Part shown: positions 26,664 through 63,792 of the stretch, piece after piece
How the letters are laid out: each line of letters starts with the position of its first letter
Position numbering within the stretch: position 1 is the first letter of the stretch
From: Turritopsis dohrnii
Lineage: Eukaryota > Cnidaria > Hydrozoa > Anthoathecata > Oceaniidae
DNA: 64,000 nucleotides
Reading direction: 5' to 3'
Assembly (NCBI GenBank): GCA_027922465.2
Contig: BQMF02000004.1
Coordinates: forward strand, 1,426,001 to 1,490,000
The notes under the pieces: generated by a model
What the model was told of the DNA's origin: nothing
Seen by the model: the letters and a program-made list of their open reading frames with translations, nothing else
The model's database searches: none
Position numbers and translations under genes: made by a program

Positions 26664-26984
26664 TAAGGGATTTTATTTATATGACATAGTGTGGATAGTA
26701 CTTTTCATATCTACTTTACATCAAAGTCATATCAAATAGTGGCTCTAAACGTATATATGGAAGTTGACTGGTTAGTTAAAGAAAAGCTAGTTTTGAAACG
26801 CTAGTTTTGAAAAAGCTAGTTTTGAAACGGGGGTTGACGTCATTTGTGAACAATCCCTTATGATTACCAGAAATGTTTCCCTTCATAGGATTTAATACAA
26901 TACCAGAACCTAGGGTTTGATGAGCTATTTTTCCGTTTCATGCTTCCGTTAAATAAAGGCGTGTGCGATCGAAATTTTAACAAA

Positions 26985-27036
26985 ATGCCTGTATTCACTA
27001 GAAGTATAATGATTTCAAATAAAGACAAGCAGATAC
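26985..27036 (+). pseudogene. LINE ORF1 5' fragment, upstream of the transposon insertion
   Basis: The frame starting ATG at 26985 (MPVFTRSIMISNKDKQI) reads into the 10-bp target site of the helicase/DUF6589 transposon. It resumes after that element as QEENSQ followed by stops. This places the LINE start left of the insertion. The ORF1 assignment comes from the downstream coiled-coil and RRM-like part. Confidence 0.45.
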
Positions 27037-27110
27037 CAACCTCGTCCCCAGGGCTTCTTGCCTTTTTGATATACGGATGGCGGCGAAGAAAGCCCTGGTG
27101 CAGGCCGGTC
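27037..27110 (+). repeat. Left terminal inverted repeat of the helicase/DUF6589 transposon
   Basis: It pairs with 34546-34619 with only a few mismatches. It contains a nested hairpin, since AGGGCTTCTTGCC and GAAAGCCCTGG are partly complementary. Confidence 0.9.
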
Positions 27111-27293
27111 AAAACCCACCGAAATACTGGTGGTTTTAATTTATGCAGTACTGACGTCATTTGTCTTTTCTTCCCATGGTTTTAAGATCGTCTTCATACG
27201 GGCAAACGAGGTAGAGAACTACTTAAATTTTTTTCATTAAAACGTCGAGTGAAACAGAATTCGTACGATCATAGATAAAATTAGCAAACGAAA

Positions 27294-30200
27294 ATGGAGC
27301 AAGTGATTAATTTATTTAAGCAAATTGAGTACGCTTTAGATAAAAGCAATATACAAGGGGGATTTTTTAAAACCAAAACAAGTTCAATGCTGGAATCAAC
27401 TTTTAAAAGGCAACGATGTCTTAGCAGTTCTACCAACTGGTTTTGGTAAATCGTTGGTTTATCAACTGCTGCCTTTTCTAATTCCTAAGAAGAGGAAGAG
27501 AAATATTGTCATTGTTGTAAGTCCGTTGAATTCAATCATACAAGATCAAATGAGAGTTTTAACTGATAGAAAAGTCAAAGTTGGTGTCCTGCAATTTGAA
27601 AAAGTGAAAGAGGTGTCATCATTGTTTCAGCATCAAAAAGGAAAGCAGCAACAACAGTGTAATAATATTTCTGATACTGAAACTGATGATATGGAATTAG
27701 AATTAGCCAGTGAAGTTTTAGAAGGAGAAATCGACATTCTGTTTTCACATCCAGAGTCGTTATTGTGTGATGATGGAAGAAAACTATTAAGATCCAATAT
27801 ATATGGAGATAATGTTGTGGCATGTTGCATTTATGAAACACATTGTGTTGAAATGTGGTATGTATATTACATAATAATAGTTTTTGATAAAATATATTTT
27901 GACATCAAGCCTCTGCAGGTTAAAAAGTTAAATATATATATAATATAAAACAAGATGCCCTACCGGGCAGAAGGATTTCTGCAAGCTTTGCTGCTGAAAA
28001 TGCCACAAAAATGCAACACTAGCACACTAGTCCTGCAAAACTAAGACAGTCACATCATTCAGCTCGAGAAGCATCAGCATTAAATAAACAAAAATATTGA
28101 TGCGACTGACAATGTTTTCGTCAAGAAAGTCAGCCTACCATAACATAAAAAAGGGGCTTTTCTTTATGCTATCGCGGAGATCATTTATGAAGATCTGTTT
28201 TTTTGTACGAATAAGCTGAATGATTGTTACTGGATATTTGCCACCCACGTACTCCAAAAAAGTGCATCGACACAATACGAAACTTTAATTTAACCACATT
28301 AAATATAACGAATCCTATAAAAAGATTGTGTATACTGGCGGTAACCAACATATCGTTTGGGCAGCACAAACTAATATATAAAGTTTCTATATTGATCTCT
28401 CCTCAGAATGAAAAATATAAATATCACAATAATAATTACTTAGAAATTAAAGCTCATATCTAATCTAAAAGTTAAAAAAATACAACATACGTAGGGAGAA
28501 AAGAGATAAGCTGATATAGCCAGAATACATCCAAAAATTGCTACTAAATATAGTATAAATAGCTGTATAAAGTGCATATGTTGGTGATGTTGGGGAGGAG
28601 CTGAAAGGAAGCTAAGCTGAGCTTTAAAAATCCAAAAGCTTCTAAAAATTGACTTCAAACATGCATACACATACAAAATACACGAAGGTCTTTCATATTT
28701 AAAAAGGCTTGGAGCAAAAATAAAACAAGAAATACCTTTTCTTCCACCACCATGTATTGGCACTGTTTTCATATTTTAAACTTCAAGAAAACTTCTTTCA
28801 AAAAACAGAATAACCACACTGTAATTTAATTTTGTGAACATGATAAGTTCCCAACAGTAATGCAATTCTTTATATAAAATTATAAGCTGTATTAACTTCT
28901 TTTAAAGCCATATTTCCATCAAAGAAACTTTTAGCAAACCACGTTCTTTCGCTGCCATTTTTAAAACGTTTTGTGGACGATCACATTGGCATGGCGAAAA
29001 TCAGCCAATAAACTATCGCTATTGAAGTTAGGGTGGCTGTATTAGCACCCTTTCGTAGAAATCGGGCATTATGTACCAATCACGATTGAGACGGCTTTTT
29101 TATGAACCAATCAAATTGGAGAAACAAATATGACTAGGTTTGGACAGTAAGATGAAAAAAAAAAACAAAAAAAAAAACAAAGACGATCGTAAAGGCTTTC
29201 TTGCTTACGCAGAAATCCAATAAGACTTTAACACAATGCAGCTAAATTAGCTGGGTATTTTTTTAAAAAAACTCAATATGTAATAGTTTTTGAGTGCTTA
29301 AATAATATAAATAATAAATGTATTATGAACACAATAATAAGTATATATATAGCTTCTGTATATAACTTTTATGTGGACAAAACTAAAAACAAAAGAGCTT
29401 GAAAATCGAATTTATATATATAAATCTGCTTTTATAACACACAATACAGACCAATATTACCCAGATTTTCTGAATAAAAATCTGTAAGAATGCATGCATT
29501 GAACTTTGAGAATCAACAATTAGTATAGGAAAACTTCATATAAAATAGAAAGTGTATTGTGGAACCAAAACATACATTTTGAACTTAACACAAAAACATA
29601 ATATGTAAATGACTAACTATTTACTATAGAAGTTATAGACTTTATTCTGTTTTTTTTATATAGGGGTAAAGAATTCAGGACAGACTTTGAGAATTTATCT
29701 GTTTTAAGAGCCTTCTTTCTTTCAGCTGTTATGTTGGCATTAACAGCAACTTCACCACCAGATCAAATTAAAAAGTTAAAAAAGACACTGAAAATGGAGG
29801 AATGTGAAATCATCAAAGCTTCTCCAAATAGGAGAAATGTCTTTCTTTCTGTACATACAAGGTTATCTAGTAGCAAGGGGATTCAAAGTTATGAAGACAT
29901 TTTGAAACCAATTGCAATGCAGTTGGACAATAAAAGGGAAAAATATCCATTAACTTTTATTTATACCAGCAGGATTAAGTATTGTGGTTATGCTTACAAA
30001 TTTTTTGAATCCATCATTAGTAACCCATTTGTCGGAAAGGAATTGTGTCCTAGAGCAAGGCTTTTCAGTCAGTTTCACGCATCATCTACTTCCCAGATGA
30101 AGGCTGAAATTCTGCAAGAAATCAAGAATGAAAACTCCAGAATTCGTGTTGTTATTGCTACTACTGCATTAGGAATGGGTGTAGATGATCCTAGTGTTTC

Positions 30201-30738
30201 TCAAATAATACATATGAATCCACCCAATAATCTTGAATCGTATGCACAAGAAATTGGAAGGGCAGGGAGATCTGAGCAACAATCCAAAGCTATTTTATTT
30301 TATAATAACAATGATTTGAGCGACAAAAATGTGGATGAATCAATGAAGATGTTTTGTAAATCATCTACCTGTTTGCGAAAGCAACTGCTTGAATACTTTG
30401 GTTTTTGTGGTGATTCTCAGGACATGTGTTGTTCAGTTTGTAATGAAGATGTTTGTGTATACAAATCAATTGAAACAGATGGTAAAAAACCTTCTCGACT
30501 CGTGATGCAGGAAAATCGAAAGATTATTTGTGAAAAGTTGGTTGATTTGCAGTACAATATGGAAGAACACAACAAATTACAATCTGAATATATGGTTCAT
30601 GTGTTCAGGTTATCCAATGAAATTATTGAAGATGTTGTTTTTAACATTGAACATGTTCTATCATTCAATATTTGGGATGATTTATATGTGCAATTAATAT
30701 ATGATATCATAGAGAAATATGCTCCATATATGCAATAA
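27294..30738 (+). pseudogene. RecQ-like superfamily 2 helicase of the transposon (damaged)
   Basis: Exon 1 is 27294-27857 and exon 2 is 29664-30738, split by a GT-AG intron of 1.8 kb inside a tryptophan codon. Helicase motifs appear in order: Q-like KPKQVQCW, motif I LPTGFGKSLVYQ, Ia VSPLNSIIQDQM, III LALTATS, V/VI ATTALGMGVDDP and EIGRAGRSEQQ. A RecQ zinc-binding region follows (C-x3-CLRKQLLEYFG, CCSVC). It would unwind DNA during transposition (inference). Two defects are seen. A G5 run at about 27356-27361 puts the ATG one base out of frame with motif I, and the expected DEAH box reads YETH, losing the catalytic Asp. AATAAA overlaps the stop codon. Confidence 0.8.
27947..29220 (-). mobile_element. 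Helentron-like non-autonomous element, family A copy 3
   Basis: It lies entirely inside the helicase intron. On the minus strand the 5' end is ATTGGATTTCTGCGTAAGCA. The 3' end has GCAGAAATCC, a GCCCGGTAGGGC hairpin and ATCTTGTTT. The 'ggtttggacagtaag' block and a purine-rich microsatellite near the 5' end are shared with the other A copies. It inserted after the helicase/DUF6589 transposon and enlarged the intron. Confidence 0.65.
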
Positions 30739-30739
30739 A
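30734..30739 (+). terminator. Polyadenylation signal of the helicase gene
   Basis: AATAAA overlaps the TAA stop (30736-30738). The compact 3' end fits the tail-to-tail gene packing of the element. Confidence 0.5.
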
Positions 30740-31014
30740 GTTTTATATATATATATATATACATACATAAAAAACACAATGGAATAAATAAGAATTCAGA
30801 ATTTTGTAGTTATTTGCAGTTATGATTTCAATGAAGTTGTTAATTCTGTAATGTTCTTTTATTCCACTGTCTTTATTGTCTAAGGTAAAGCATAATAATC
30901 ACAAGGTGCAAAAAATCCTGGCTGGTTTGTCTTTGATTGTTTATATTAGAATGTTATTATATAATTGGATGATTCATAAATGACTTGAACAAATGACAGA
31001 TCAATTCTACCTGA

Positions 31015-31020
31015 TTTATT
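31015..31020 (-). terminator. Polyadenylation signal of the DUF6589 gene
   Basis: TTTATT on the plus strand reads AATAAA on the minus strand, 14 bp past the TGA stop. Confidence 0.5.
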
Positions 31021-31033
31021 ATGCTTTACTTTT

Positions 31034-33984
31034 TCATGCAGCTAATTCATTTTTGTGTTTATTTAACCACTTATGAAATTCTACAATATTCAAATACAAG
31101 GAGGGGGATCTTTTAATATCAGGAAAACTTCTATGTGCTTGACCAACTGTGTGTGTAAATGGGTCAAGTTGAAGCAAGTCTTTGATCATCTCCTTCTCGT
31201 CAATTAAAGAATTTGCAGTAGTGTGACCAACTGATGCTTTGTGGATGTTGCTTGTGATGTCAAAATTTTCAACAATTTCTTTGATTCCACTTGTGGCTTT
31301 ACATATCATAGAGATACTCCTCAAGGTTTTGTTTGCTCCCTTTCTCTGTACAATACCCTTGGAAATCTTGTTTGAAATCTCTTGAGCAAGATCATCCTCA
31401 ATATTGTTCCCAGCTCCACCTCGCCAATTAACGAAATTACCCCATTTGAATTCTTCTGCAAGCTGTTGGGTTAGTAAACTTTTTATTTGTGCTATACTGA
31501 TGAACATTTCAATAGCATATTTGCTATAGGCTCCAAGGGATTTGAAAATATTCAACAAAAGTTTCTGATTGATCAGATTTCTTTCGCCATCTGCTTCCCT
31601 AGCTGTATCTTTCATCTGTAAAATTAAAATGGTGAGGTAAATAAAACAAAGTCCATAGTTTTTCACAAAGTCATCTGCTGGGTCAGGAAAATTTTGTATC
31701 AAATATATATGAAGAAATTTTTCTACAACGTCATCCAGGTATTGCATTTTAACTTCAGTTGAACTATGTAACAAGTTTTTTGGGAAAGGATGATTAGTTG
31801 GTTTTTCATTTTCATTTTTCATACCAAAAAACTGCATGGCTGCTACAGTTATGTAGGCCTTGCCGGAACTGACTACAAGTTCCTCACACCCTTGATATGA
31901 GTCTAAAACCTTTGTTGGTGTAACATTCTTACGGTTGTACTTTTCTCTGAAATATTTGAGTGTACCCATCTGGTTTACCGATTCAGATGAATACAGTAAG
32001 TGATAGCAGTACTGTAGGAATGATGCCTTTGTGTGCCACATTACAGGCTTAAATGGAGAGCAGTGTTCAAGTCTATCACTAGGTGTATGGGATCCTCTCA
32101 GTAGATCCTTAGCACCTGCAAACCGGACTCTTGTCAACTGGTCACCACCAAATACAATCTTCATGTCTTTCATTTCATCATCTTCTGTAAACACCGTATG
32201 ACCAAACTGCTGTCCTGGAGCAGCTGGTCCATGTTGAATGGGAGGATTTTGAAGATGTGGGAGATTCTGTAATAACCCAGCCTCATGGTAAATTTCTGCA
32301 ATCCATTTTTCATAGGTTCGAAGGATTTTCACACAGTCATTGTAGTTGTTTTCATTAGCATTTATTATGGGCATAGATATGATACACGACTTATTTGACA
32401 TTTCTTGAGAATATTGATGTTGTATGTGTGTTGGTAAACATGATTTTAAAAAGCTGAATTTGAGGAGTGACTCTACCAAAATTCGACCTACCAGCACTTT
32501 CGATGTTGCAAGATAATGTTTCCATTCAGATACATTTAATGAAAATTTGCTTTTGTCCAATAGCCTTATATCACACTTGGGGTGGTCATTTGGTAAATGC
32601 TGGAATTTTAACCGGTTTTCCAACAAGTTTGAGGCAATTAGATGTAAATCTTCGTTTTGCTTTTCTTTTCTCATGTGTCCCTTGAGTATTCTCAAATCCC
32701 AATTGTCACCAGTACCACGGAATGATTTACCCTCTTTTATTTTGTAGACAGCTTTATCAAGGAAATGACCACCAATAAGCTGTAGGAGATTTTCTCTAGA
32801 TCTGTATGATAAACAAATTCCAAACTTGTTGAATCGGTTTTGTAACTAAAAGAAAATTACATAATGTAAGACTTCTGTTTGTATTTTATATATGAAGTAT
32901 TTTTTAAATTCACTTTAAAATATCTCATGGCAGAACCTTCTGTGATAAACTGAGATTCAGAAGCCTCAATTTTGAAAAAATTATTACTTACAAAAACTTA
33001 TTGCTAAAGGTAGTGCTGTGAGAAATATCAACATTGAGATCATAGTATTACCTCCTTACTGCAACCACCGTCAATAACCAAAACTGTATTAATCCTCTGT
33101 AAAAGGCTTAACTCATGCCATCGAGCATTCATTAAAATTGCATAAATCAGTGCATACTTCTGTTTCAATTCAGCTTGGGTTTCTTCAATATCAACTGCCC
33201 TTCCAGACACAGTATTAAAAATATCAATTATAAAGGGATGGTTTTCCTTCAGTTCTGAATAAACTTTGTCTACACTGTACTCAGATAGTCCTGTGAAAGT
33301 GTTATCCAATAATACTGACTTATTTTCCTTTCTTTTACAGAGTTTTTCACATGATGATGCAATTTCATTGCATAATAGCCTTTTTAGTGCAAGATTGACT
33401 CCCACATATGTAGACAGTGATGTTGCTATGGCTAGTGGTTGTTTTGTTTTTAATGAGTTCTCAATTTTTTCAGTATTTTCCAATGGTTTTGTTACAATTT
33501 CGTCATAATCTTCAGTATATACAGAGTTATGTTTTATTATGTAATTTTCATCTTGTTTAGGTTGTTGTACTATGTTCCTTACTTTTATTTGTTGTTGTGT
33601 TGTAAATTGTAACTGTTTACGTAAACCTATGCTGGAGCTTTCTCCATTAATAGCATGTGATTGGATACTACTTGGTGGTAATCTTTTTATAGATAAGCTT
33701 TGTCTGAGTGTCACCTGTGTTTGTTGACAGGATTGCATGAATGTCAACATGTTTTCCACACGGCTCAAACACTTTCTGCAAATTGTATGGGGGAGACAGT
33801 CATCCTCCTCTATAGTGATTCCACATGTACGTGCAATTTTCAGAGACAATCTTTTCTGCTTTCCAGAAACTGAAAATATCTTTAGTAAGTAATTGTTGTT
33901 CTTTTGCTCTCCACAAAGTCGACATTTGGATTGATTTCCTCCTTCTTTCCGCAAATACACTTTCTTTGGTGTTAATTGAGCCAT
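31034..33984 (-). CDS. ZAD-like zinc finger + DUF6589 protein (candidate transposase)
   Basis: Exon 1 is 33984-33052 and exon 2 is 32845-31034, joined in phase 0 across a GT-AG intron. The protein is 914 residues without internal stops. Residues 20-75 form a C2-C2 zinc finger like the ZAD domain (CRLC at 21-24, CRKC at 69-72, spacing as in zf-AD). The middle is low in motifs. From about residue 312 the sequence follows the DUF6589 pattern: FGICLSYRS, LIGGHFLD, GDNWDLRI, HLPNDHPK, then GGDQLTRVR at about 544 and HTKASFLQYCY. DUF6589 is common in cnidarian and fungal mobile elements. The Asp of GDQLT may be catalytic in an RNase-H-like fold (inference). Its place between perfect terminal repeats makes it the most likely transposase. 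Confidence 0.85.
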
Positions 33985-34545
33985 TTACTCATGGACACTA
34001 AATATTCACACCAGTATTATATATTTTTTTCATTTACAACGCAGGTAGGGAAAAAGAAAAATGTTTTCCCTGAAAAATTTTATGAACTTACTTCCACAAT
34101 TTTGAGAAGCTATTAAGTTACAGTTACACCTGCTTGGTAGGAATACTTTTGAATGGTAGAGCATGAGAGGAAAATATTTAGCTGATATATCTGTACGTAC
34201 TGCACTGGCTGTCATCAATTTTCTAGCCTCGTTACTATCTTTTTTCTCACAAATAAATGATAAATAACCTTTAAAAAAAAGAAAAAGAAAAAAAAAAGAA
34301 AAAAAAACTGATAGAGAAATCAATAAAACAAATTGATAAGTACGAAAATTGAGTCATAGCCAATTATAATGTTATTTAATATTTATTCATCAGGTCTTGT
34401 CTTCTGCATTGGTGAAATATTTTCAATCTTATTCCATTTCTGGCTTTGAAACTTTCGGCATTTATTTTTTTAAAATCTCACTCGACGCCGCGGGTAATAT
34501 TTTCTTAATTATTTAATTCTCGACAACCAATCACAAGTGAGAAAC

Positions 34546-34619
34546 GACCGGCCTGCACCAGGGCTTTCTTCGCCGCCATCCGTATATCAAAAAGGCCAGA
34601 AGCCCTGGGAACGAGGTTG
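34546..34619 (-). repeat. Right terminal inverted repeat of the helicase/DUF6589 transposon
   Basis: This is the reverse complement of 27037-27110, ending GGGAACGAGGTTG directly before the second AAGCAGATAC. Confidence 0.9.
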
Positions 34620-34629
34620 AAGCAGATAC

Positions 34630-36223
34630 AAGAAGAGAACAGTCAATAGGAAGAATAAGAAACAGAGGATATTTCGACTGGTAAAGTAGCTTTAAACTTT
34701 CTTTATTGTGAAATCAAGAACCTTAGATCGCATATGACTAATATACTAACAGACAAGATTGATTCTAAAAATACAGATATGATGAGCAATCTTCGAGAAA
34801 AAAAATAATCTTTTGAGAAGTGAATTACAGTCAGTTAAGAACGAATTAGAAAAGAAATCTCCAGAGATCGTAAGCCTTCAAAAGGAAATCGAAGACCTTC
34901 AGTATGACGAAGTCGGTGAACATGACCATGATGATTTAGAAAGAGACGTTGCTGAACTACAACAATGTGTGAGAAGAAACGATGTAGAGATTTGTGGCGT
35001 TCCTGATGAACCAATCTTGAAGAAACAGTTATCAAAATTGCAAGTGCTGTTGATGTTAAAATTTGCATGCAAGATATTGATTCTTGTCATAGATTCTACC
35101 AAAGCCAAAAAGAAGCCTGCATATCATGATTATTAAATTCGTCAACGCTACGTTTTGTGAAAAATTACTTAGAAAAAACAAACTGTTTTCAAAAAAACAA
35201 TTTAACAAAAAGTTGCTCTCGATATTAAGATCTATATCAACAATAATCTCTGTGATTATTTTAAACTATTGTGCATTGAAACAAAGGAACTACACTCTGA
35301 AGAAGTAATTAATGAATACTGGATATTTAACGGTACCCTAAAGATTCGTATTGCAAAAAACTCTTCACCTATCAAGATTACCCATCTTAACGATTTTGTT
35401 GACTTATTTCCACAACACGAAAGTGTTTGGAAGATCATTAAATTTTTCTCACTTTAATATTGAATTTCGTGATTGTCAAAGCACAGTTACATGCTACGTG
35501 TAATGGTATCGAATCTAAACATTTGCATGACCTTTTAATAAAAATAAGTGAGAGAACTTTCTTCTTTATCAACTTTACTTGAGCGTTTCTTTGATATCTT
35601 GGGGATTACTGAAACTAGGTTATATAAACATTCACCTGGTAATATCAACCTTCCCGACTATTATTTATTCACACAGCCACGGAAACAGGTATGGGTGGGA
35701 CAGGCCTTTACATTGCGAATAAATTGCCATGTCTTCCTCGTGATGACTTTTCTACACTTCTTTACTTAATTGGCTGCCTAGAATTGGTTTTTTTGAAACT
35801 TAAATTTAAGAATAAAAAGAACATTATTGTAAGCTGTACTTATTGACATCCTTCAATAGTTATTGATGTTTTTAATGAAAGTTTTTGAAGAGAATAAAAT
35901 TTGCGTTCTACTAGGAGTATTTAACATTAATCTTCTGTATAGTGATTGTATGTCTTCACATTCTAAGTTTTAATATTGTCTTCGTTCATATCAAATTTTA
36001 CCATATAATTTTCTACCAACTCGTATTATTCAAGGCGTCTGGCCCATATAGCAAGCCTATCAGAAAACTCAAACTTGTGCATATAAACATTTCTATCAAA
36101 CTTTCTTTTTTGGTTTATCTTACTTTTGAATCTCTTGAATCTCTTAAAATATCGTAAAATATCTTAAGTCATTCCTGATGATAAAAAGTGTTCTACTACT
36201 GAAATTGCGTACTACCGACCAAT
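34630..36223 (+). pseudogene. LINE relic, part 1: ORF1 and endonuclease remnants
   Basis: It continues the LINE cut at 27036. About 34810-35200 encodes a coiled coil (ELEKKSPEIVSLQKEIEDLQ) followed by VRRNDVEICGVPDE and, after frameshifts, DIDSCHRFY and IIKFVNATFCEKLL. This is the typical order of an L1-type ORF1 RNA-binding protein. From about 35500 an endonuclease remnant shows FFDILGITETRLYKHSPGN, a GGTGLYIA segment and a degraded G-x-FNINLL. Many stops and shifts are present. A Harbinger element interrupts it at 36224. Confidence 0.65.
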
Positions 36224-36389
36224 AGGGAGTTTACGCACAGACGACGCAGCGGCTACGACGACGTTGTTTCTCGAAATTTTTAGCCGTGTCGTCTTAGATT
36301 ATGACTTCAAGTTTTTGTTGTTACGCGCGCCAAAACAAACTACGCGCTAAATATGGCACATTAAAACGTAAACAAACAGAAATAGCAAA

Positions 36390-37475
36390 ATGCCAGGCTT
36401 AAAAGAAGTCAGAGAACAATTGCTTATAGCATATGACAGCTGCATAATTTCTGAAGAAGAGTTTTTGTTGCTCTATGATGTAAACAGATCTACTAATCCT
36501 GAATACAATCACTGGGATTATAGTTCGTTTGATCTTGAAGAGGTACCTGAAGCGGAGTGCTACACAGAATTTCGCTTCAGAAAAAATGATATCCTCAGAT
36601 TGAAAGATGTTTTGCAAGTTCCTGATGAAATTATTTGCTACAACTATAATGATATCAAGGCAGATGGAATGGAATCGCTATGTCTACTTCTGCGTCAATT
36701 GTGTTATCCAACTAGGTTTGCAGACCTGATTCCCAGATTTGGTCGGCCAGTACCCCAGCTCTGCATGATATTCAATCATATACTTGATTTTTTGAATGAC
36801 ACCTGGGGACATCTACTTGAGACAATGAATCAACCTTGGTTAAGACCTGACAAGTTGAGAGCTTTTGCTAATTCTATACATGCACAAGGCGCCCCATTAA
36901 ATTATGTGTGGGGGTTCATTGATGGTACTTTGAAAGCTTGCTGCAGACCAAATCAGAATCAAAGAACCATTTACAATGGTCATAAACGATACCATGGTCT
37001 GAAATATCAGTCAGTATCAACACCTAATGGAATGATAGCTCATTTATTTGGGCCAATTGAAGGCAAACGGCATGACAGCGCTATGCTTGCACTCTCCGGT
37101 CTGTTGAATCAGCTAAATCAACATTCTTTTGATCAATATGGAAACATTCTTTGCATTTATGGGGACATGGCCTACCCCTTAAGACAGCAGCTACAGGCAC
37201 CCTTTGGAGGAGCAAATTTAACTGCACAAGAGAAGGCATACAAGAAAAGTATGAGCCAAGTTCGAGTATCTGTTGAGTGGGTCTTTGGAGACGTTGTGAA
37301 TCAGTTCAAGTTTAATGATTATAAAAAAAACTTAAAAGTTGGACTAAGTCCTATTGGCAAATTTTACAGAATACGTGCATTGCTCACTAATGCTACACAA
37401 GTTTATACAGTAATGTTACCGAGAATTATTTCGATCTACAGCCACCTACTCTTGAAGAATATTTTTTGTAAATAA
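36390..37475 (+). CDS. Harbinger-type DDE transposase (HARBI1-like), frameshifted C-terminus
   Basis: 361 codons from an ATG at 36390. The N-terminal half resembles the HARBI1 helix-turn-helix region (LCLLLRQLCYPTRFADL, FGRP). The DDE_Tnp_4 core follows: first Asp in WGFIDGT, second in IYGDMAYP, and the Glu in SVEWVFGD. All three catalytic residues are present. A one-base deletion near 37390/37391 shifts the last 27 or so codons. In the other frame the family's closing motif FDLQPPTLEEYF is intact and ends at 37471, so the visible frame's tail is not native. It acts with the Myb-like protein encoded downstream on the opposite strand. An AATAAA lies at 37641. Confidence 0.85.
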   Translation: MPGLKEVREQLLIAYDSCIISEEEFLLLYDVNRSTNPEYNHWDYSSFDLEEVPEAECYTEFRFRKNDILRLKDVLQVPDEIICYNYNDIKADGMESLCLLLRQLCYPTRFADLIPRFGRPVPQLCMIFNHILDFLNDTWGHLLETMNQPWLRPDKLRAFANSIHAQGAPLNYVWGFIDGTLKACCRPNQNQRTIYNGHKRYHGLKYQSVSTPNGMIAHLFGPIEGKRHDSAMLALSGLLNQLNQHSFDQYGNILCIYGDMAYPLRQQLQAPFGGANLTAQEKAYKKSMSQVRVSVEWVFGDVVNQFKFNDYKKNLKVGLSPIGKFYRIRALLTNATQVYTVMLPRIISIYSHLLLKNIFCK

Positions 37476-49487: not shown

Positions 49488-49540
49488 CCTTAACCGTATT
49501 TAAATTCGCGCTGTACTATTTTTCGCGCACCTTAAAATGC

Positions 49541-50452
49541 ATCATCCACTTCATTCGGCACGGATACAACCAACAAGCCTTACGAAAAACGCAAAAAGAA
49601 ATTGGTGACATCGAACGGGATACTCTTCTTGTTGATGAGACGAAAAAGGAAAGATGAACAGATCGTTTTCGTCCCCGATTGGCATCCAAATCTTAGTACA
49701 CTACCCTCTGTTCTGAGAAAAAGTCGACATGTAATTGAAAACAACCCAGATCTACGACAGATATTCAAAACTCCCCCGATTGTTGCATTTAGGCGTGGAC
49801 AGACCATCAAATCGAAGATCACAAGGAACGATGTCTCTGTCCGATCCAAAAGAGCAATCACACCAACGAAACCATGCAACAAATGCAAGTTGTGTGGTAA
49901 TATCAAAGAAGCAACCCAGATCAAGCATGGCGACGAGACAACGGTTCTTCACGACGGAGGCGGAAACTGCAAATCACGAAATGTTGTGTACGCCGCCATC
50001 TGTAAAAGACATAACACCATCTATGTCGGTCATACTGGCGAAAGGTTGAGCGATAGATTTTCAAAACACCGGTATGACATCGAAAAAAGACCGGGAAATT
50101 CAGAACTTGCCGAAAATTTTCATACAGACCACGATCTCACAACAGATATGCAAGTTCTGATTTTGCAGAAGGATATTCAAACCCAAGCCAAACGAGAACG
50201 GCTTGAGGATCGGTGGATTTGTCGTTTACAAACTCTTCAACCGGCTGGGATGAACTTAGAACTCCACCAGTACGGAAAAGAAATGTACAGGCATTTCACA
50301 AAAACATTAACAATTACAAACTAAAACAAGAAAATTTGTAGTTCTTTGTATTTTACTTCTCGTTCATTTTGCATATTTTGTGCTATTGTTAATCATTTAT
50401 TTTTATGACGTCAATTTTTTATGCAATGTAATGTCTTCTGTTTAACTGTAAA
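49541..50452 (+). mobile_element. 5'-truncated Penelope-like element
   Basis: CACCTTAAAATGC occurs at 49528-49540 and 50453-50465, a perfect 13-bp target duplication. Joining its outer flanks restores the pogo terminal repeat. Only the C-terminal part of the coding region was inserted, as is common for target-primed retroelements. Confidence 0.8.
49602..50324 (+). CDS. Penelope-like C-terminal region with GIY-YIG endonuclease
   Basis: 240 codons. The N-terminal piece matches the linker after the reverse transcriptase (IVFVPDWHPNLSTL, PPIVAFRRGQTIKSKI). A zinc-binding CNKCKLC is followed by NVVYAAICKRHNTIYVGHTG, the GIY-YIG core (variant VYA...IYVG). The catalytic-region arginine is in RLSDRFSKHR and the glutamate in RERLEDRW. 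It ends with LQPAGMNLE. Upstream codons in another frame (IRHGYNQQALRKTQKEI) belong to the same protein, so a frameshift lies near 49645. The fragment lacks reverse transcriptase and cannot move itself. Confidence 0.8.
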   Translation: MVTSNGILFLLMRRKRKDEQIVFVPDWHPNLSTLPSVLRKSRHVIENNPDLRQIFKTPPIVAFRRGQTIKSKITRNDVSVRSKRAITPTKPCNKCKLCGNIKEATQIKHGDETTVLHDGGGNCKSRNVVYAAICKRHNTIYVGHTGERLSDRFSKHRYDIEKRPGNSELAENFHTDHDLTTDMQVLILQKDIQTQAKRERLEDRWICRLQTLQPAGMNLELHQYGKEMYRHFTKTLTITN

Positions 50453-51927: not shown

Positions 51928-53453
51928 ATGTCGTTGTTTAAGTATTTTGAGAAAGTGCCAAAAACTGATCTTGGGATAGCTGCAGCAGAAAGTACTTTAA
52001 CAGCTAGAGAGGTATGTTTATATGATAAAAGTTTAAATTTTTTAGTTTTCATTTGCTTGTTGAAATGAAATAAATCATTGCTCTAATTTTTTTTGTTTTA
52101 GGCTGAATGTGTTGAAGTAGCTATCGCTTCGTCGAGTAAAGAAAACCACAGCAAACCATCTGGTGCTAAACGACAGAAATACGGTGATTACGATGAGTTC
52201 AAACGTCTTGAAGTTGCTAAGTGGGCTGTTATCAATGGTGTAAGACCAGCATCAAGGAAGTATAACATTCCAGAATCAACAATTAGAGGTATGATAAAAT
52301 CCCTTGACGTCAAAAAGCAAGACTGTTCCCAAGATGACCTTAATTCACTTCCTAAAAAAAGACGTGGAGCTAAACCCCTTTTACCAGAAGAAATCGACGA
52401 GAAAGTTATGAAAATGATCAAGAGCATGAGAGCATCTGGCACTGGAGTTACGTGGGACATGACAATATCCATCGCTAAACGTTTAGTTATTGCAAATGAT
52501 AGAACTTTGCTAAAAGAAAACGGAGGGAGCCTTGAACTTAATGAAACTTGGGCACAATCGATTCATCGCCGATTAGGGAGTGTTAAAAGAAAAAGTACGA
52601 CAACAAAGCAACCTGTTTCGCCTGGTTTAATTAAAGAAATCGGTTTTACTTTTTTTAAGGCTGTAAACGATGCTGTGTCGGCGTATAATATTCCAGCTGA
52701 ACTTATAATTAACATCGATCAAACTCTGCAGCCCTTCTTTTTGGTATCAAACTATACTCTTGCAGAGAAAGGAGTAAAAACTGTTGCAGTTACTAATAGT
52801 GGTGATTATCGCCAAATAACTGGAACTTTCGCTGTTACAATGAAAGGTGACTTTTTGCCAATGCAGCTCATATACCAAGGAAAAAGATGTCACCAAAAGT
52901 TGAGTTTCCACAGGGCTTTAATATAACGCAATCCCCCAACCACTGGTCGAATGAAGAAAAATAAAAAGAGCAAATTAATGAAGTTTTAATTCCATATGTT
53001 ATCAACGCTAGGAAGAATCTGAATCTTCGAAATAACCAGGAATGGTTGTTGATAGCAGATGTTTTCAAGGATCATCGGACTGATGATGTCAAAAAATTAG
53101 TGAATGATAGCCATGGAAAAATGGTCGCGGTACCTAATAACATGACAAATATCTTTCAGCCTCTTGACCTCAGTGTCAACAGAAGTTGTAAGGCTCATTT
53201 ACGCAAAATTACCCATGATTGGTTTACAAGTAAAGTCATGGAACAACTCCAGAAAGGTGTTGCACCTGAGAACGTAAAAATAGAATTGAAGTTAAGTATT
53301 TTGAAGCCGTTACATGCCAAATGGGTTATTTCTTTTTATGACTTCATGTTAAATGATGACAAAAATATTGTTAAAAATGGTTGGAAAAGGTCCAGTTTAA
53401 TCGATTTTCTTGAGAAACCAAGTGAAGAAAAACAAGAGGATCCATTTCTTTAA
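51928..53453 (+). pseudogene. Pogo/CENP-B-like DDD transposase, broken
   Basis: Exon 1 is 51928-52011. A GT-AG intron leads to exon 2 from 52102 in phase 0. The N-terminus has a helix-turn-helix (EFKRLEVAKWAV...SRKYNIPESTIRGMI) and a CENP-B-like second helix region (GTGVTWDMTISIAKRL). The DDE_1 core keeps all three acidic residues: NIDQT, LLIADVF and FQPLDLSVN. Two lesions are visible. A frameshift falls near 52890 (in sequence after QLIYQGKRC) and a TAA follows at 52962-52964. The rest runs open to 53453. So the copy cannot make full transposase, while its passenger gene on the other strand is intact. Confidence 0.8.
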
Positions 53454-57299: not shown

Positions 57300-57787
57300 G
57301 ATTTTATTCCCTCAAGATCTTTATACCATTAGATTGATTTTGTTCCAAGTTTTCCAAATATGTATAAATTAACATAAATATTTTAAAAATTAAAGATAAC
57401 TTCCCCTTGATATGGTTATTACTTTTGTAACAGAAAGATGAGTCAATTGTCAAATCTTACAAAGCATAAGACGGGGATGGTGTGACCAAAAATGCAGGTA
57501 CTATAACCTGGACACATAATTTAATACACCATTAGGCTTCAAGATTCAAATTTATTGTTGATTTCCATCTCGACATTGCATTTTTAACCTTTCTCGACGT
57601 GATCAGAGGCTTGACTGGAAAAACAGACGCATTTAGCATTTTCAGAAAGATATCCGTTGAAAGCTTTCTTTGCGGAACGAACATATTTGTTCATTTTAGT
57701 AGTTCATAAAACTACAAATAATAGGTATATATATATTCATATAAAAATAATAGGTCTTCCTTAATGTAAGTTCTGATACTTTATTAG
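57300..57787 (+). other. Upstream sequence or intron of the beta-helix receptor gene
   Basis: No signal-peptide exon could be identified here. The sequence ends with the acceptor CTTTATTAG at 57787. An AAAATGCAG/GTACTA donor-like site occurs at about 57494, but the frame before it has stops. Confidence 0.4.
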
Positions 57788-60700
57788 GTTATGATTTCCG
57801 GGTACATTATGTATCAAGTAATGGCATTGATTCCAAAAACTGCGGAAAAAGCACGGATCCTTGTCATTCATTGGGATATACTTACAGTCAAAAAGTGGAA
57901 AAGGATGGTGTCATAATTATCAACAACGAGAATTGTGATAGATATGTGATTAACGAAAGTGTTTTTTTATCTGATGGTCATGTCACCTTTAAAGGAATGG
58001 AAAGTAATGGTTGCTTGCCAAAAATTATTACAAGCAAGAGGGTCCCAATGTTTGGAGTCCAAGAGAATGCAACATATATCAACATCTCTATGCAAAGTCT
58101 TTATTTCATAGATATAAGTCTAATTGCAGTTACTGGGAGAGAGCTTGAAGGAATTCAATTCGAAATGAACGATTGCCACATCAAGGGAATCATAAACGAA
58201 GATTTCCTAAATATCAATTTTACTGACCAGTCGAAACCATTAAACAACACACTCATTTCCATTCACAACATCACAGTTACATCTGCTGCAATAACGGTAT
58301 CAGGTCATGATCTACATTCCAACGTTACCGTGAACATTACTGATTCAATATTTTTTAATAAGTCAATGATCAAAATCATGAATGCTAAAACATTTATTTT
58401 GCACAGATGTCAATATAGTGCACAAATGAGCATGCATGGATACTTAATTGATGCTATGAAGGTAAATTGTGTTGACATAAGCGAGGTGCTTATCCAAAAT
58501 ATTACTAATGAAGGTTTTGTTACAGTGGTAGATTCTCATTGTATAATTCAAAAATTAACAGCAAAGAATATTTTCTCACATTCGTCTTTGTTTGATTCAC
58601 TTCGTGGAACATTCAAATTGTTGGATGTGATCGTTGGAAATGCAAGCGGCTATGGTATCCTCAGATCTTCGAAGCAGTCCTCAACAGCTATTACTAGGAC
58701 TGTAATTGAAGAAGTGGTTACTGCTTCTGACATGTTCGAACTGATGAGCGTGAAAGATGTCAACATGACGGAAATCAACATTCAAAATGGATCAAGTGAT
58801 TGCCACATTGTTAACATTAACGGAGGAGAGTCAGCAATTTTATCAAAATTGAACATCACAGGGACAAACGTAAAGATTGATTATCTACATTATGATAAAG
58901 TTAAACATATCAACATGACGGAAATCAAATTTGAAAACGGAAATGTAAGTCGGACTGGTATTTCTACTTATAATGTAGAATCAGCGTTAGTATCAAAGTT
59001 GAACATAGAAGGGACAAGTGTAACGGTGAATAATCTAGTTTTTGGAAACGTTACACTCACCAACATGACAGAAATCAAATTTGAAAACGAAAATGTAGGT
59101 CGGAATGGTATTTTGACTTATAACGGAGAAGCAGCGTTACTATCAAAGTTGAACGTTTCAGGGACAAAAGTAATGGTGGATTATCTATGTTATGAGAAAG
59201 TTAAACATATCACAATGACGGAAATCAAATTTGAAAACGGAAATGTAGGTCGGACTGGTATTAGTATGCTTAATGGAGAATCAGCGTTACTATCAAAGTT
59301 GAACATAGAAGGGACAAGTGTAACGGTGAATAATCTATTTTTTGTAAACGTTACACTCACCAACATGACAGAAATCAAATTTGAAAACGGAAATATAGGT
59401 TGGCATGCTATTTTTACTTATAACGGAGGAGCAGGGTCACTATCAAAGTTGAACGTAGCAGGGACAAAAGTAAAGGTCGATTATCTATGTTATGATAAAG
59501 TTAAACATATCAACATGACGGAAATCAAATTTGAAAACGGATACGTAGGTCGGACTTGTATTTCTACTTATAATGGCGAATCAGCGTTAGTATCAAAGTT
59601 GAACATAGAAGGGACAAGTGTAACGGTGAATAATCTATTTTTTGGAAACGTTACACTCACCAACATGACAGAAATCAAATTTGAAAACGGAAATGTAGGT
59701 CGGAATGGTGTTTTGACTTATAACGGAGAAGCAGCGTTACTATCAAAGTTAAACGTTTCAGGGACAAAAGTAAAAGTGGATTATCTATGTTATGAGAAAG
59801 TTAAACATATCACAATGACGGAAATCAAATTTGAAAACGGAAATGTAGGTCGGACTGGTATTTCTACTTATAATGGAGAATCAGCGTTAGTATCAAAGTT
59901 GAACATAGAAGGGACAAGTGTAACGATGAATAATCTAGTTTTTGGAAACGTTACACTCACCAACATGACAGAAATCAAATTTGAAAACGGAAATGTAGGT
60001 CGGAATGGTGTTTTGACTTATAACGGAGAAGCAGCGTTACTATCAAAGTTAAACGTTTCAGGGACAAAAGTAAAAGTGGATTATCTATGTTATGAGAAAG
60101 TTAAACATATCACAATGACGGAAATCAAATTTGAAAACGGAAATGTCGGTCGGACTGGTATTTCTACTTATAATGGAGAATCAGCGTTAGTATCAAAGTT
60201 GAACTTAGAAGGGACAAGTGTAACGATGAATAATCTAGTTTTTGGAAACGTTACACTCACCAACATGACAGAAATCAAATTTGAAAACGGAAATGTAGGT
60301 TGGCATGGTATTTCTACTTATAATGGAGAAGCAGCGTTAGTATCAAAGTTGAACGTTGCAGGAACAAATGTTTCCGGATCTTACTTACGTTTTGAAAACA
60401 TTACACATATCCACATGACAGAAATCAAATTTGAAAACGGAAATGTAGGTTGGCATGCTATTTTTACTTATAACGGAGGAGCAGGGTCACTATCAAAGTT
60501 GAACGTAGCAGGGACAAAAGTAAAGGTCGATTATCTATGTTATGATAAAGTTAAACATATCAACATGACGGAAATCAAATTTGAAAACGGAAATGTAGGT
60601 CGGACTGGTATTAGTATGCTTAATGGAGAATCAGCGTTAATATCAAAGTTTAACATTTCAGGGACAAATGTTTCGTTTACTTGCATAAGTTTTAATGAGT

Positions 60701-63700
60701 TTACACATATCCACATGACAAAAATCAACTTTAGTAACGGATATTTAGGTCGGGTTGGTATTTATGCCTTTAGTGGAGAAACAATCTTTCTATCAAATTT
60801 GAGTATAAAAACTTTTGTAGTAAGATTTAGCTGTTTGCAATTTGACTACTATTCTAACGTCGATATTTCGTATATTACAATCAAAAATGGACGTAGCAGT
60901 AGTTGCGTGAAATTATTTTATTCCAAATTAGCATCACTTTCAGATTTCTTAATACAGAATATGTCATCAGATAATGACATTTTAAGTGTGTATGGTGTTA
61001 ATCATTTGAACATGTCTAATTTAAATTTTGGAAATTCGAAAACATCAAAAGCTATTGTTATTTCATCTGCTGGCGTAAATGTAGAAAACATTTTCACAAC
61101 AGGGTTTTACAAGAAAAAAGACGATTCAGTTTATTCTGTGTGGAAAAGAACAAAAGAAAAAGTATTTTCAAAGGTGTTAACTATGCAAGATATTCAGAAA
61201 AGAAATGAAACAATGTTTATGAAAAATCAGGAAAGTCGGTTTCTTTACCAAACCTATTTCAGATATCAGATCCATCTGACTGATCAAAAACAAAAATCGA
61301 CGTTTACCACTCCAATGATACATTTGGTAAACATATATTTCAGAAATGTGACATTAAACACTGCAGTTGATGTTAAAAAGAGTAATTTATGGATGGAGAA
61401 CTATTCTTCTATTCTTTCACAAATTGAAAGAGGATTTGATTTTGAGGAAGGAGAAATTACAATTATTGATGCTAATATATCCTGTGACGAAGGCGTCCTA
61501 GCTGTAAACTCTAACATCACTATAGAAACTTCATCTTTAAACGTATCGAAAAGCGCCTTCTCCTACAGAAATTTAAAGAACACAGTTAGCTTCTTCAGAA
61601 TGACAGATGTCAAAATAATTTCTCTTAGCAATAAGATGCCGACAATTATGATAAAAGGAAAAGAAAACTTCAACATCAGCATACTTCGAGTGGACCTCCG
61701 TATGACAGATGTAAAAATGGAATTTCCCGTCATTGAAATTATTACAAAAGCTGGCGTTTTTCCAAGTATTGTCAATTTCAGCAATTCCACTTTGTCGTGT
61801 CCAAGAAACAGCCTTCCCAATTACAATATCAAGGTAACTGACGTTTTTCAATTTGAATATTATTGCAAGCCATGTGCGAAAGGATTCTATGCTGTTACTG
61901 ATCTTGAAGCGAGATATTTTTTTAATACAAACAGCGAGAATGTAAAAATTCATGAATATCCGAGCACAGCCTTTGGGCCGGAAGCGTTCTCTTACATTAC
62001 TACCGAAAGTATGACAAATTGGACCATGTCTGGAAGTCCAAACACATTAACATGTAAAATGTGTCCAAGTGGTGGGACTTGTCTTGACGAAATCGTGAGC
62101 AACGATAATTATTGGGGCTTCCTTAACCAATCGACTGGAAAGGTAAAATTTCACCATTGCCCCAATGGTTATTGTTGCTCTAAAATTACGAATTCATGCC
62201 ATTCTTACAATGCTTGCAACTCGCATCGCTTTGGAACATTATGCAGCAAATGCCAAGATGGTTACTTTTTTGACTATTTTTCATCAAACTGTGTTCCCGC
62301 AACCACCTGCAAAGACCCTTTCGTTTTCTGGTTAATATATTTTATGTCTTGTTTATTATATATCCTTGTAGTTGCGTACTTAGATGAACTGAAAGCACTA
62401 TCAACTTTCTTAAAGAAAATCATTCATGCGTTAACTTGCCACAAACTCTTTAAAGATGAAGCACAAGAAGAAGAAATTAATGTTGAACATATTGAACTAA
62501 AAAGATACAGCTCAACTAACCCCATTGATGATAAAAGCAAAGGAGATTTCCTACCAAATGAATTAGAATTGTCCCGGGAACCTAAAGAAGACAAATGTCG
62601 TTGGTCGGGAATCTTGAACATATTTGTCGCTTTCTACCAAATAAATCATTTAATGACCATTGACTTGGGTCTTACGTACTCTAAATCAAAAATAAACACA
62701 TTTTTAGCAGACTCATTCAATTTAAAGATGATGAAAGTTTCTTACGGTCTCTGCCCATCACACTCATTTAATGATCTACAAAAACATATTATAAAAAATC
62801 TCATATTTTCCCTTATAATGGTTTGTCCTGTTCTTATATTATCTATAACATTACACTTCATGTGTATCTACAGGGATTCATCAAGGTTATTGGAAGCAGA
62901 CGTGCGAGAAGAAGCGAACATCGGTCAAGAATGTGACATATACACATCAACAAATCCACCAGGTGACATTTCGCTGCTAACTCGTGGATATGCTTGTTTC
63001 TTACGTTTACTTACCATGCAATATAAAAACTTAGCAACGTTTTCCTTCGTAATGATTCATTGTATCGTAGTTGGCAATGAGAATGTGCTGTATGTATACA
63101 GTGAAATGAAATGTTGGGGTTTGACGCAATATCTAGCCTCCTCGTTTCTTGCATTGTGGATTGTTCCTTTTCCGCTTTCTCTCTTTTTGTCATTACAACT
63201 TTTAAAATCAGATCACATGTCCTCTGAAAAATTCATCGTCTTCATGGTGGTCCCGGTAATGGTGCCATTCTATTGCATATGGAAATTGTGCAGCAACGTC
63301 CATAATCTCAGCAGAGTCAACAATAAATTGAAATCAACCATCAGCTTGATTTTCGAACAGCCGTACAGAAGTGGCATCACATACTGGCACTCATGGTTGC
63401 TTTATCAACGGTTGATAATGGCTAGTGCAGTAGTGTTTTACATTGATCCAATTTCTCGATTGTCTTTCATTTTTCCGCTCTTGGTTTTCTTTTTATTGAT
63501 TCAACTTCAAATCAAACCATACAAAGACGACTTGGTGAACAAACTAGAATCTGTTTCCATTTCAATGTTAATCATTTCTGCCGGTGTTAACTTGCTACGC
63601 TCTTTTTTATATGTTTATAGAGTCGATGATGATGAAGCAATAACATCCGTGCTGAAGACCTACGAGTCAATTGATGTAATATTAACCCCAGTCATGTTTT

Positions 63701-63792
63701 TGATATTATATTTCATTTATCAATTTGTTTTTAAGATGTGGAAGAAATTTCGAGAGGTTTTAATTAAAAGAAGGAGAAGGAAGTATATTTGA
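57788..63792 (+). CDS. Giant cell-surface protein: beta-helix repeats, Cys-rich segment, multi-pass membrane C-terminus
   Basis: One exon of about 2,000 codons, open from the acceptor at 57787 to TGA 63790-63792. The first codon is split, so at least one upstream exon (signal peptide) is missing. It opens with YVSSNGIDSKNCGKSTDPC-like sequence, the usual N-terminal mark of secreted pectin-lyase-fold proteins. A beta-helix-like region with many N-x-T/S sites follows. Fourteen exact 150-bp repeats (NMTEIKFENGNVGR...) span 58762-60861. A cysteine-rich segment at about 61795-62320 holds CKPC, CKMCPSGGTC, and HRFGTLCSKCQDGYFF. From 62322 there are about eight hydrophobic segments (FVFWLIYFMSCLLYILVVAY first), ending in a basic tail. 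Probably a plasma-membrane receptor or adhesion protein; ligand unknown. Confidence 0.8.
58762..60861 (+). repeat. In-frame array of fourteen 150-bp (50-residue) repeats
   Basis: The AAC/ACAATGAC motif for (N/T)MTEI recurs at exactly 150-bp steps from 58762 to 60712 without one length change. Units alternate in a 300-bp higher-order pattern. Blocks 59641-59940 and 59941-60240 differ at only two positions by eye, and 59401-59541 equals 60451-60591, showing recent duplication or gene conversion. Confidence 0.95.

Follow-up and report, generated by a model that had tools for sequence, protein, structure and literature searches.

What kind of mobile element would carry a helicase beside a protein of a family that Pfam lists as of unknown function (DUF6589)? 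The question arises from a 64-kb stretch of contig BQMF02000004.1 of Turritopsis dohrnii, analysed here at its full length (hereafter the window), in which a DNA transposon of 7,583 bp occupies positions 27037-34619. With high confidence, we regard this element as a copy of an AcademH-type transposon, whose transposase is the zf-AD/DUF6589 protein and whose second, convergent gene encodes a RecQ-like helicase; this assignment was made by description, not by reference sequence. AcademH is a lineage of the Academ superfamily, reportedly named by Kojima in 2020 (Mob DNA 11:15, known here from citations). The element is new in its details and belongs to a lineage already known.

Structure of the element

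The element is bounded by inverted ends of 74 nt each, 97% complementary and mismatched only at positions 10 and 23. A preliminary description of this DNA had recognised these ends, putting their length at 73 bp, and had correctly reported both the perfect 10-bp duplication around them and the two convergent genes of the interior, in which a Pfam scan places DEAD and Helicase_C on the plus strand and zf-AD and DUF6589 on the minus strand. The features are as follows.

27027-27036: left target-site duplication, AAGCAGATAC, an exact match to 34620-34629
27037-27110, plus strand: left terminal inverted repeat (TIR), 74 bp, starting CAACCTCGTCCCCAGGGCTTCT, from its complementarity to 34546-34619
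27294-27857, plus strand: helicase coding part 1 (DEAD), limits putative, set by a GT donor and by comparison with homologue P0121
27858-29663, plus strand: putative helicase intron, 1.8 kb, from GT..AG and frame
29664-30738, plus strand: helicase coding part 2 (Helicase_C; sub-threshold RecQ zinc-binding)
31034-32845, minus strand: transposase exon 2, DUF6589 (PF20231), from Pfam
32846-33051, minus strand: putative intron of the transposase gene, some 206 bp long (GT..AG borders, phase 0; homologue P0028, which is uninterrupted, continues across it)
33052-33984, minus strand: transposase exon 1, N-terminal zf-AD zinc-finger domain, from Pfam
34546-34619, minus strand: right TIR, 74 bp, from its complementarity to 27037-27110
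34620-34629: right target-site duplication, AAGCAGATAC, a perfect 10-bp copy of 27027-27036

Related copies in the same genome

A DUF6589 search of the 436-Mb assembly (891 contigs, the window lying on contig C4) gave 67 matches, which are matches rather than elements, several of them adjoining one another. Ends were examined for 21 of the 67 and, separately, for two more (L029 and L030), the other 44 being left out. The 21 comprise the window copy and 20 fetched copies, namely the 17 best DUF6589 matches apart from the window's, followed by those on C25, C91 and C584; a match at C10:986697, which contains two stops, outranked these last three and was skipped. Both ends, sought with the pattern CAACCTCG..CCCAGGG..TCT and at most 4 substitutions, were present in 15 of the 21 copies; the remaining six (L009, L011, L014, L015, L026 and L028), for which the approximately 10 kb fetched did not show both ends, stand outside the duplication count. 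Exact duplications flank 14 of the 15 two-ended copies, 9 bp long in nine cases and 10 bp in five, so that the length is not fixed at 10 bp as first proposed; L021 has both ends without a duplication.

The helicase was matched in both its parts, convergent with zf-AD and DUF6589, in all 15 two-ended copies (in some of them in more than one frame), and is a steady partner of the transposase; among the six copies without both ends found, L009 gave no helicase match and L015 matched the second half only. Since 14 of the 15 two-ended copies, window included, combine similar ends, this pair of genes and an exact 9- or 10-bp duplication, the element is not a product of chance, and its original reading as a DNA transposon stands. 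The DUF6589 regions of the other complete copies are approximately 65-68% identical to that of the window copy over the main match, which makes these copies sibling families of it. Further afield, the protein relatives with named species are all cnidarian (Hydractinia and Clytia, which are the nearest, then Dendronephthya and Desmophyllum), in keeping with a hydrozoan host.

These copies bear on two other readings. Mutator-like elements usually have duplications of about 9 bp, and the element could be one that had captured a helicase. However, a Pfam search of the transposase exons at E 0.1 found no MULE-type family, only DUF6589 and zf-AD, and a helicase found in 15/15 two-ended copies is too steady for chance capture; we give this reading almost no credence. 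Another helicase-bearing candidate is KolobokH, or some other Kolobok lineage with such a gene. The target duplication of Kolobok elements is TTAA, whereas the present copies are flanked by duplications of 9 or 10 bp with varied sequence. KolobokH has, moreover, been found only in fungi according to passages of PMC9587614, and a Kolobok affiliation seems highly improbable.

The DUF6589 protein

Is DUF6589 then the transposase, as the preliminary description supposed? Both exons of its gene are open in the window copy, with Pfam matches to zf-AD (E 2.2e-12, open reading frame (ORF) 33040-33984, minus strand) and to DUF6589 (E 5.4e-35, 31034-32845, minus strand). The structure prediction suggested at the outset was carried out, and the DUF6589 model proved similar to RNase-H-fold transposases: the first 18 rows of a second-look fold comparison are transposases or RAG1. 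Foldseek alone gave no significant match for this model, nor for that of P0244 (a homologue considered below), and when the transposase exon, the L030 frame and alignment A2 were searched by sequence against the PDB, nothing meaningful came back. Three acidic residues are candidates for the active site, numbered along the 602-aa stretch encoded at 31034-32842.

32705-32707, minus strand: candidate catalytic D46
32141-32143, minus strand: candidate catalytic D234
31379-31381, minus strand: candidate catalytic E488 (alternative E482 at 31397-31399)

Among the alignment rows with a residue at the site in question, D46 is conserved in 40/40, D234 in 44/45 and E488 in 46/46. The fold comparison and these conserved residues make it very likely that DUF6589 is a transposase of DDE type with an RNase-H fold, in which D46, D234 and E488 would form the D-D-E catalytic triad, a proposal that draws on fold and conservation only. 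The zf-AD domain may be what binds the ends. A Pfam family of unknown function thereby gains a probable one.

The helicase and a possible mechanism

The helicase gene is recognised by a DEAD match (E 1.2e-12, ORF 27340-27948, plus strand) and a Helicase_C match (E 4.2e-14, ORF 29617-30738, plus strand), the latter ORF also containing the sub-threshold RecQ zinc-binding match. When the PDB was searched by sequence with the helicase homologue P0121, the solved structures matching best were those of RecQ, WRN, BLM and RECQ1. The intron measures approximately 0.2-0.7 kb in other copies, as judged from the gaps between matches. In the window copy, the first ATG (27294) opens a frame other than that of the DEAD domain, the break lying near 27355-27370, and YETH stands in place of the DEAH seen in L012, L018 and L023. 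On this sequence evidence the gene looks broken and its helicase inactive. The window copy probably cannot supply helicase itself and, its gene being broken, would need the help of another copy to move at all.

Transposition might proceed as follows. The zf-AD/DUF6589 transposase would bind the 74-bp ends and excise or copy the element, cutting and joining DNA through its RNase-H-fold D-D-E site; a 9- or 10-bp stagger between the cuts in the two target strands would give rise to the duplications. The RecQ-like helicase would most likely unwind DNA during transposition, whether at the element's ends or at the gap awaiting repair; the preliminary description supposed that it might assist excision or replication.

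Recent movement, derivatives and selection

Three copies of one sibling family (L018, L019 and L020) share 99.98-100% identity along 5,968 bp and lie at three different sites, with duplications of 9, 10 and 9 bp, respectively. No pair including the window copy reached the cut-off of the pairwise identity search. The element belongs to a recently mobile group, recent spread being seen in the sibling family of L018-L020. These near-identical copies matching both genes provide material for asking what part a RecQ helicase plays in DNA transposition.

A search with the TIR, in which 40 of 1,324 candidates were scored and whose figures are accordingly lower bounds, gave at least 40 genome matches to the window end, the element's own two ends included. 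Six elements of 2.9 kb (L031-L036, on contigs C361, C263, C239, C76, C54 and C262) carry the ends of the window copy and derive from its family by deletion. The pieces of the two end regions that they retain are 77-95% identical and include remnants of the first exon of each gene; the DUF6589 and Helicase_C exons found no match in them, and none of their open frames exceeds 122 aa. Over the best aligned pieces, these derivatives are 91.7-98.0% alike. Exact duplications of 9 or 10 bp flank five of the six, that of L036 having one mismatch in 9. Two end pairs 97-100% identical to the window's, C25:1223945-1232874 (8.9 kb apart) and C75:34492-46247 (11.8 kb apart, with low-score DUF6589 matches inside), are likely to be further copies of the window family.

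Related sequences free of the insertion were found for 2 of the 14 insertion sites tested against the window and the fetched sequences: for the L020 site, uninterrupted relatives lie in L010 (at 75%) and the window (at 87% and 74%), and for the L010 site there is one in L020 (at 81%). No empty site for the window copy's own insertion was present among these sequences. When its flanks are joined (26980-27036 and 34630-35136, plus strand), a frame of approximately 55 aa reads through the point of insertion; a coiled-coil-like frame (34786-35136, plus strand) lies in the right flank. The element may have landed inside another repeat.

Ratios of nonsynonymous to synonymous substitution rates (dN/dS) were calculated for 12 chosen pairs, of which three were saturated and nine usable. 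Over these nine, the transposase gave values of 0.09-1.00 and the helicase values of 0.32-1.32. In four of them (L017/L020, L017/L016, L017/L024 and L020/L025) purifying selection is visible on the transposase (0.10-0.15) and, more weakly, on the helicase (0.32-0.65); the other five gave 0.09-1.00 and 0.78-1.32, respectively.

Probable place within the Academ superfamily

Background on Academ was drawn from parts of PMC10799480, PMC10045372, PMC12210899, PMC8290104 and PMC9587614. Academ is listed among the superfamilies with a DDD/E transposase (in a portion of PMC9587614) and is, among molluscs, abundant in bivalves (from an excerpt of PMC10294476). Within it, AcademH duplications are 9 or 10 bp and those of AcademX 3 or 4 bp, a difference seemingly tied to the helicase and nuclease encoded (passages of PMC10045372). 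Features of AcademH recur in the present elements: duplications of 9 or 10 bp in 14/15 two-ended copies and 5/6 derivatives; a helicase beside the transposase in 15/15 two-ended copies, RecQ-like by its Pfam matches and by the PDB matches of P0121; and an RNase-H-fold DDD/E transposase, as indicated by predicted fold and conservation. Most likely, the Pfam family DUF6589 represents the transposase of Academ.

The preliminary description knew of no named superfamily with these traits, and a new, unnamed superfamily has some points in its favour, in that Pfam lists DUF6589 as of unknown function, no paper naming it was found in the literature searched, and the match to AcademH is one of description rather than of comparison with an Academ reference sequence or profile. 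Yet a helicase and duplications of 9 or 10 bp in animals agree with what is in print on AcademH (a passage of PMC10045372, and the title of the naming paper as given in reference lists), and the genome contains a second DUF6589 lineage resembling AcademX. We consider a new superfamily very unlikely.

The second lineage is that of L029 and L030, both of which (2/2) pass the DUF6589 cut-off of Pfam over part of the profile, as do P0241, P0242 and P0247 (3/6 homologues scanned); by this cut-off its transposase is of the type found in the window element, the hhalign probability being only 27%. In the Pfam scans, neither L029 nor L030 nor any of the six homologues showed a nuclease. A region of homologue P0244, in the same protein as the transposase, has the predicted fold of an EXO1/FEN1/XPG nuclease, which agrees with the AcademX nuclease being of XPG type. 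The inverted ends are 748 bp in L029 and 462 bp in L030, with arms 99.7% and 98.7% alike, an identity which suggests recent activity. Apparent 3-bp duplications (TTA and ATA) flank the two elements, in each case the best outcome among ten shifts of the boundary. A wider idea can be offered tentatively, and we would not bet on it: DUF6589 might be the Academ transposase, with a P/hAT/RAG-like RNase-H fold, present in one genome as two lineages in which the partner enzyme (a separate RecQ helicase with 9/10 bp or, with 3 bp, a FEN1/XPG-type nuclease within the transposase protein itself) sets the spacing of target cutting or processing.

Other features of the window

At 36372-37475 (plus strand), 1.7 kb to the right of the element, a 367-aa open frame matches DDE_Tnp_4 (E 7.5e-25); we take it to be a PIF/Harbinger-like transposase. 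A sub-threshold HTH_psq match followed by DDE_1 (E 1.4e-8) at 52102-53453 (plus strand) presumably marks a pogo-like transposon. A GIY-YIG domain at 49536-50324 (plus strand; 23.0 bits against a cut-off of 22.6) is possibly of mobile-element origin, and a 2,012-aa open frame at 57754-63792 (plus strand) has no Pfam match above cut-off, its best sub-threshold match being Glyco_hydro_49.

Comparison with known systems

The transposases of the P element, hAT (Hermes), IS256-type (ISCth4) and Transib/RAG1 share with the window exon a predicted RNase-H-like fold over most of its length; they belong to other superfamilies, at 7-11% identity to the window transposase. KolobokH and Kolobok-1_CCri also pair a transposase with a RecQ helicase, encoded in Kolobok-1_CCri on the opposite strand as in the window element, but the transposase is that of Kolobok (passages of PMC9587614). 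The AcademX-like lineage of the same genome has a DUF6589-type transposase in common with the window element, and differs in that this protein includes a region with the predicted FEN1/XPG nuclease fold (modelled for P0244), where the window element has a separate helicase, and in its long ends with apparent 3-bp duplications instead of 74-bp ends with 9 or 10 bp. AcademH, described in the sources excerpted above from animals and fungi, has a helicase, duplications of 9 or 10 bp and a DDD/E-type transposase, as does the window element; the two were compared by description only, the zf-AD and DUF6589 domains having been identified in this analysis.
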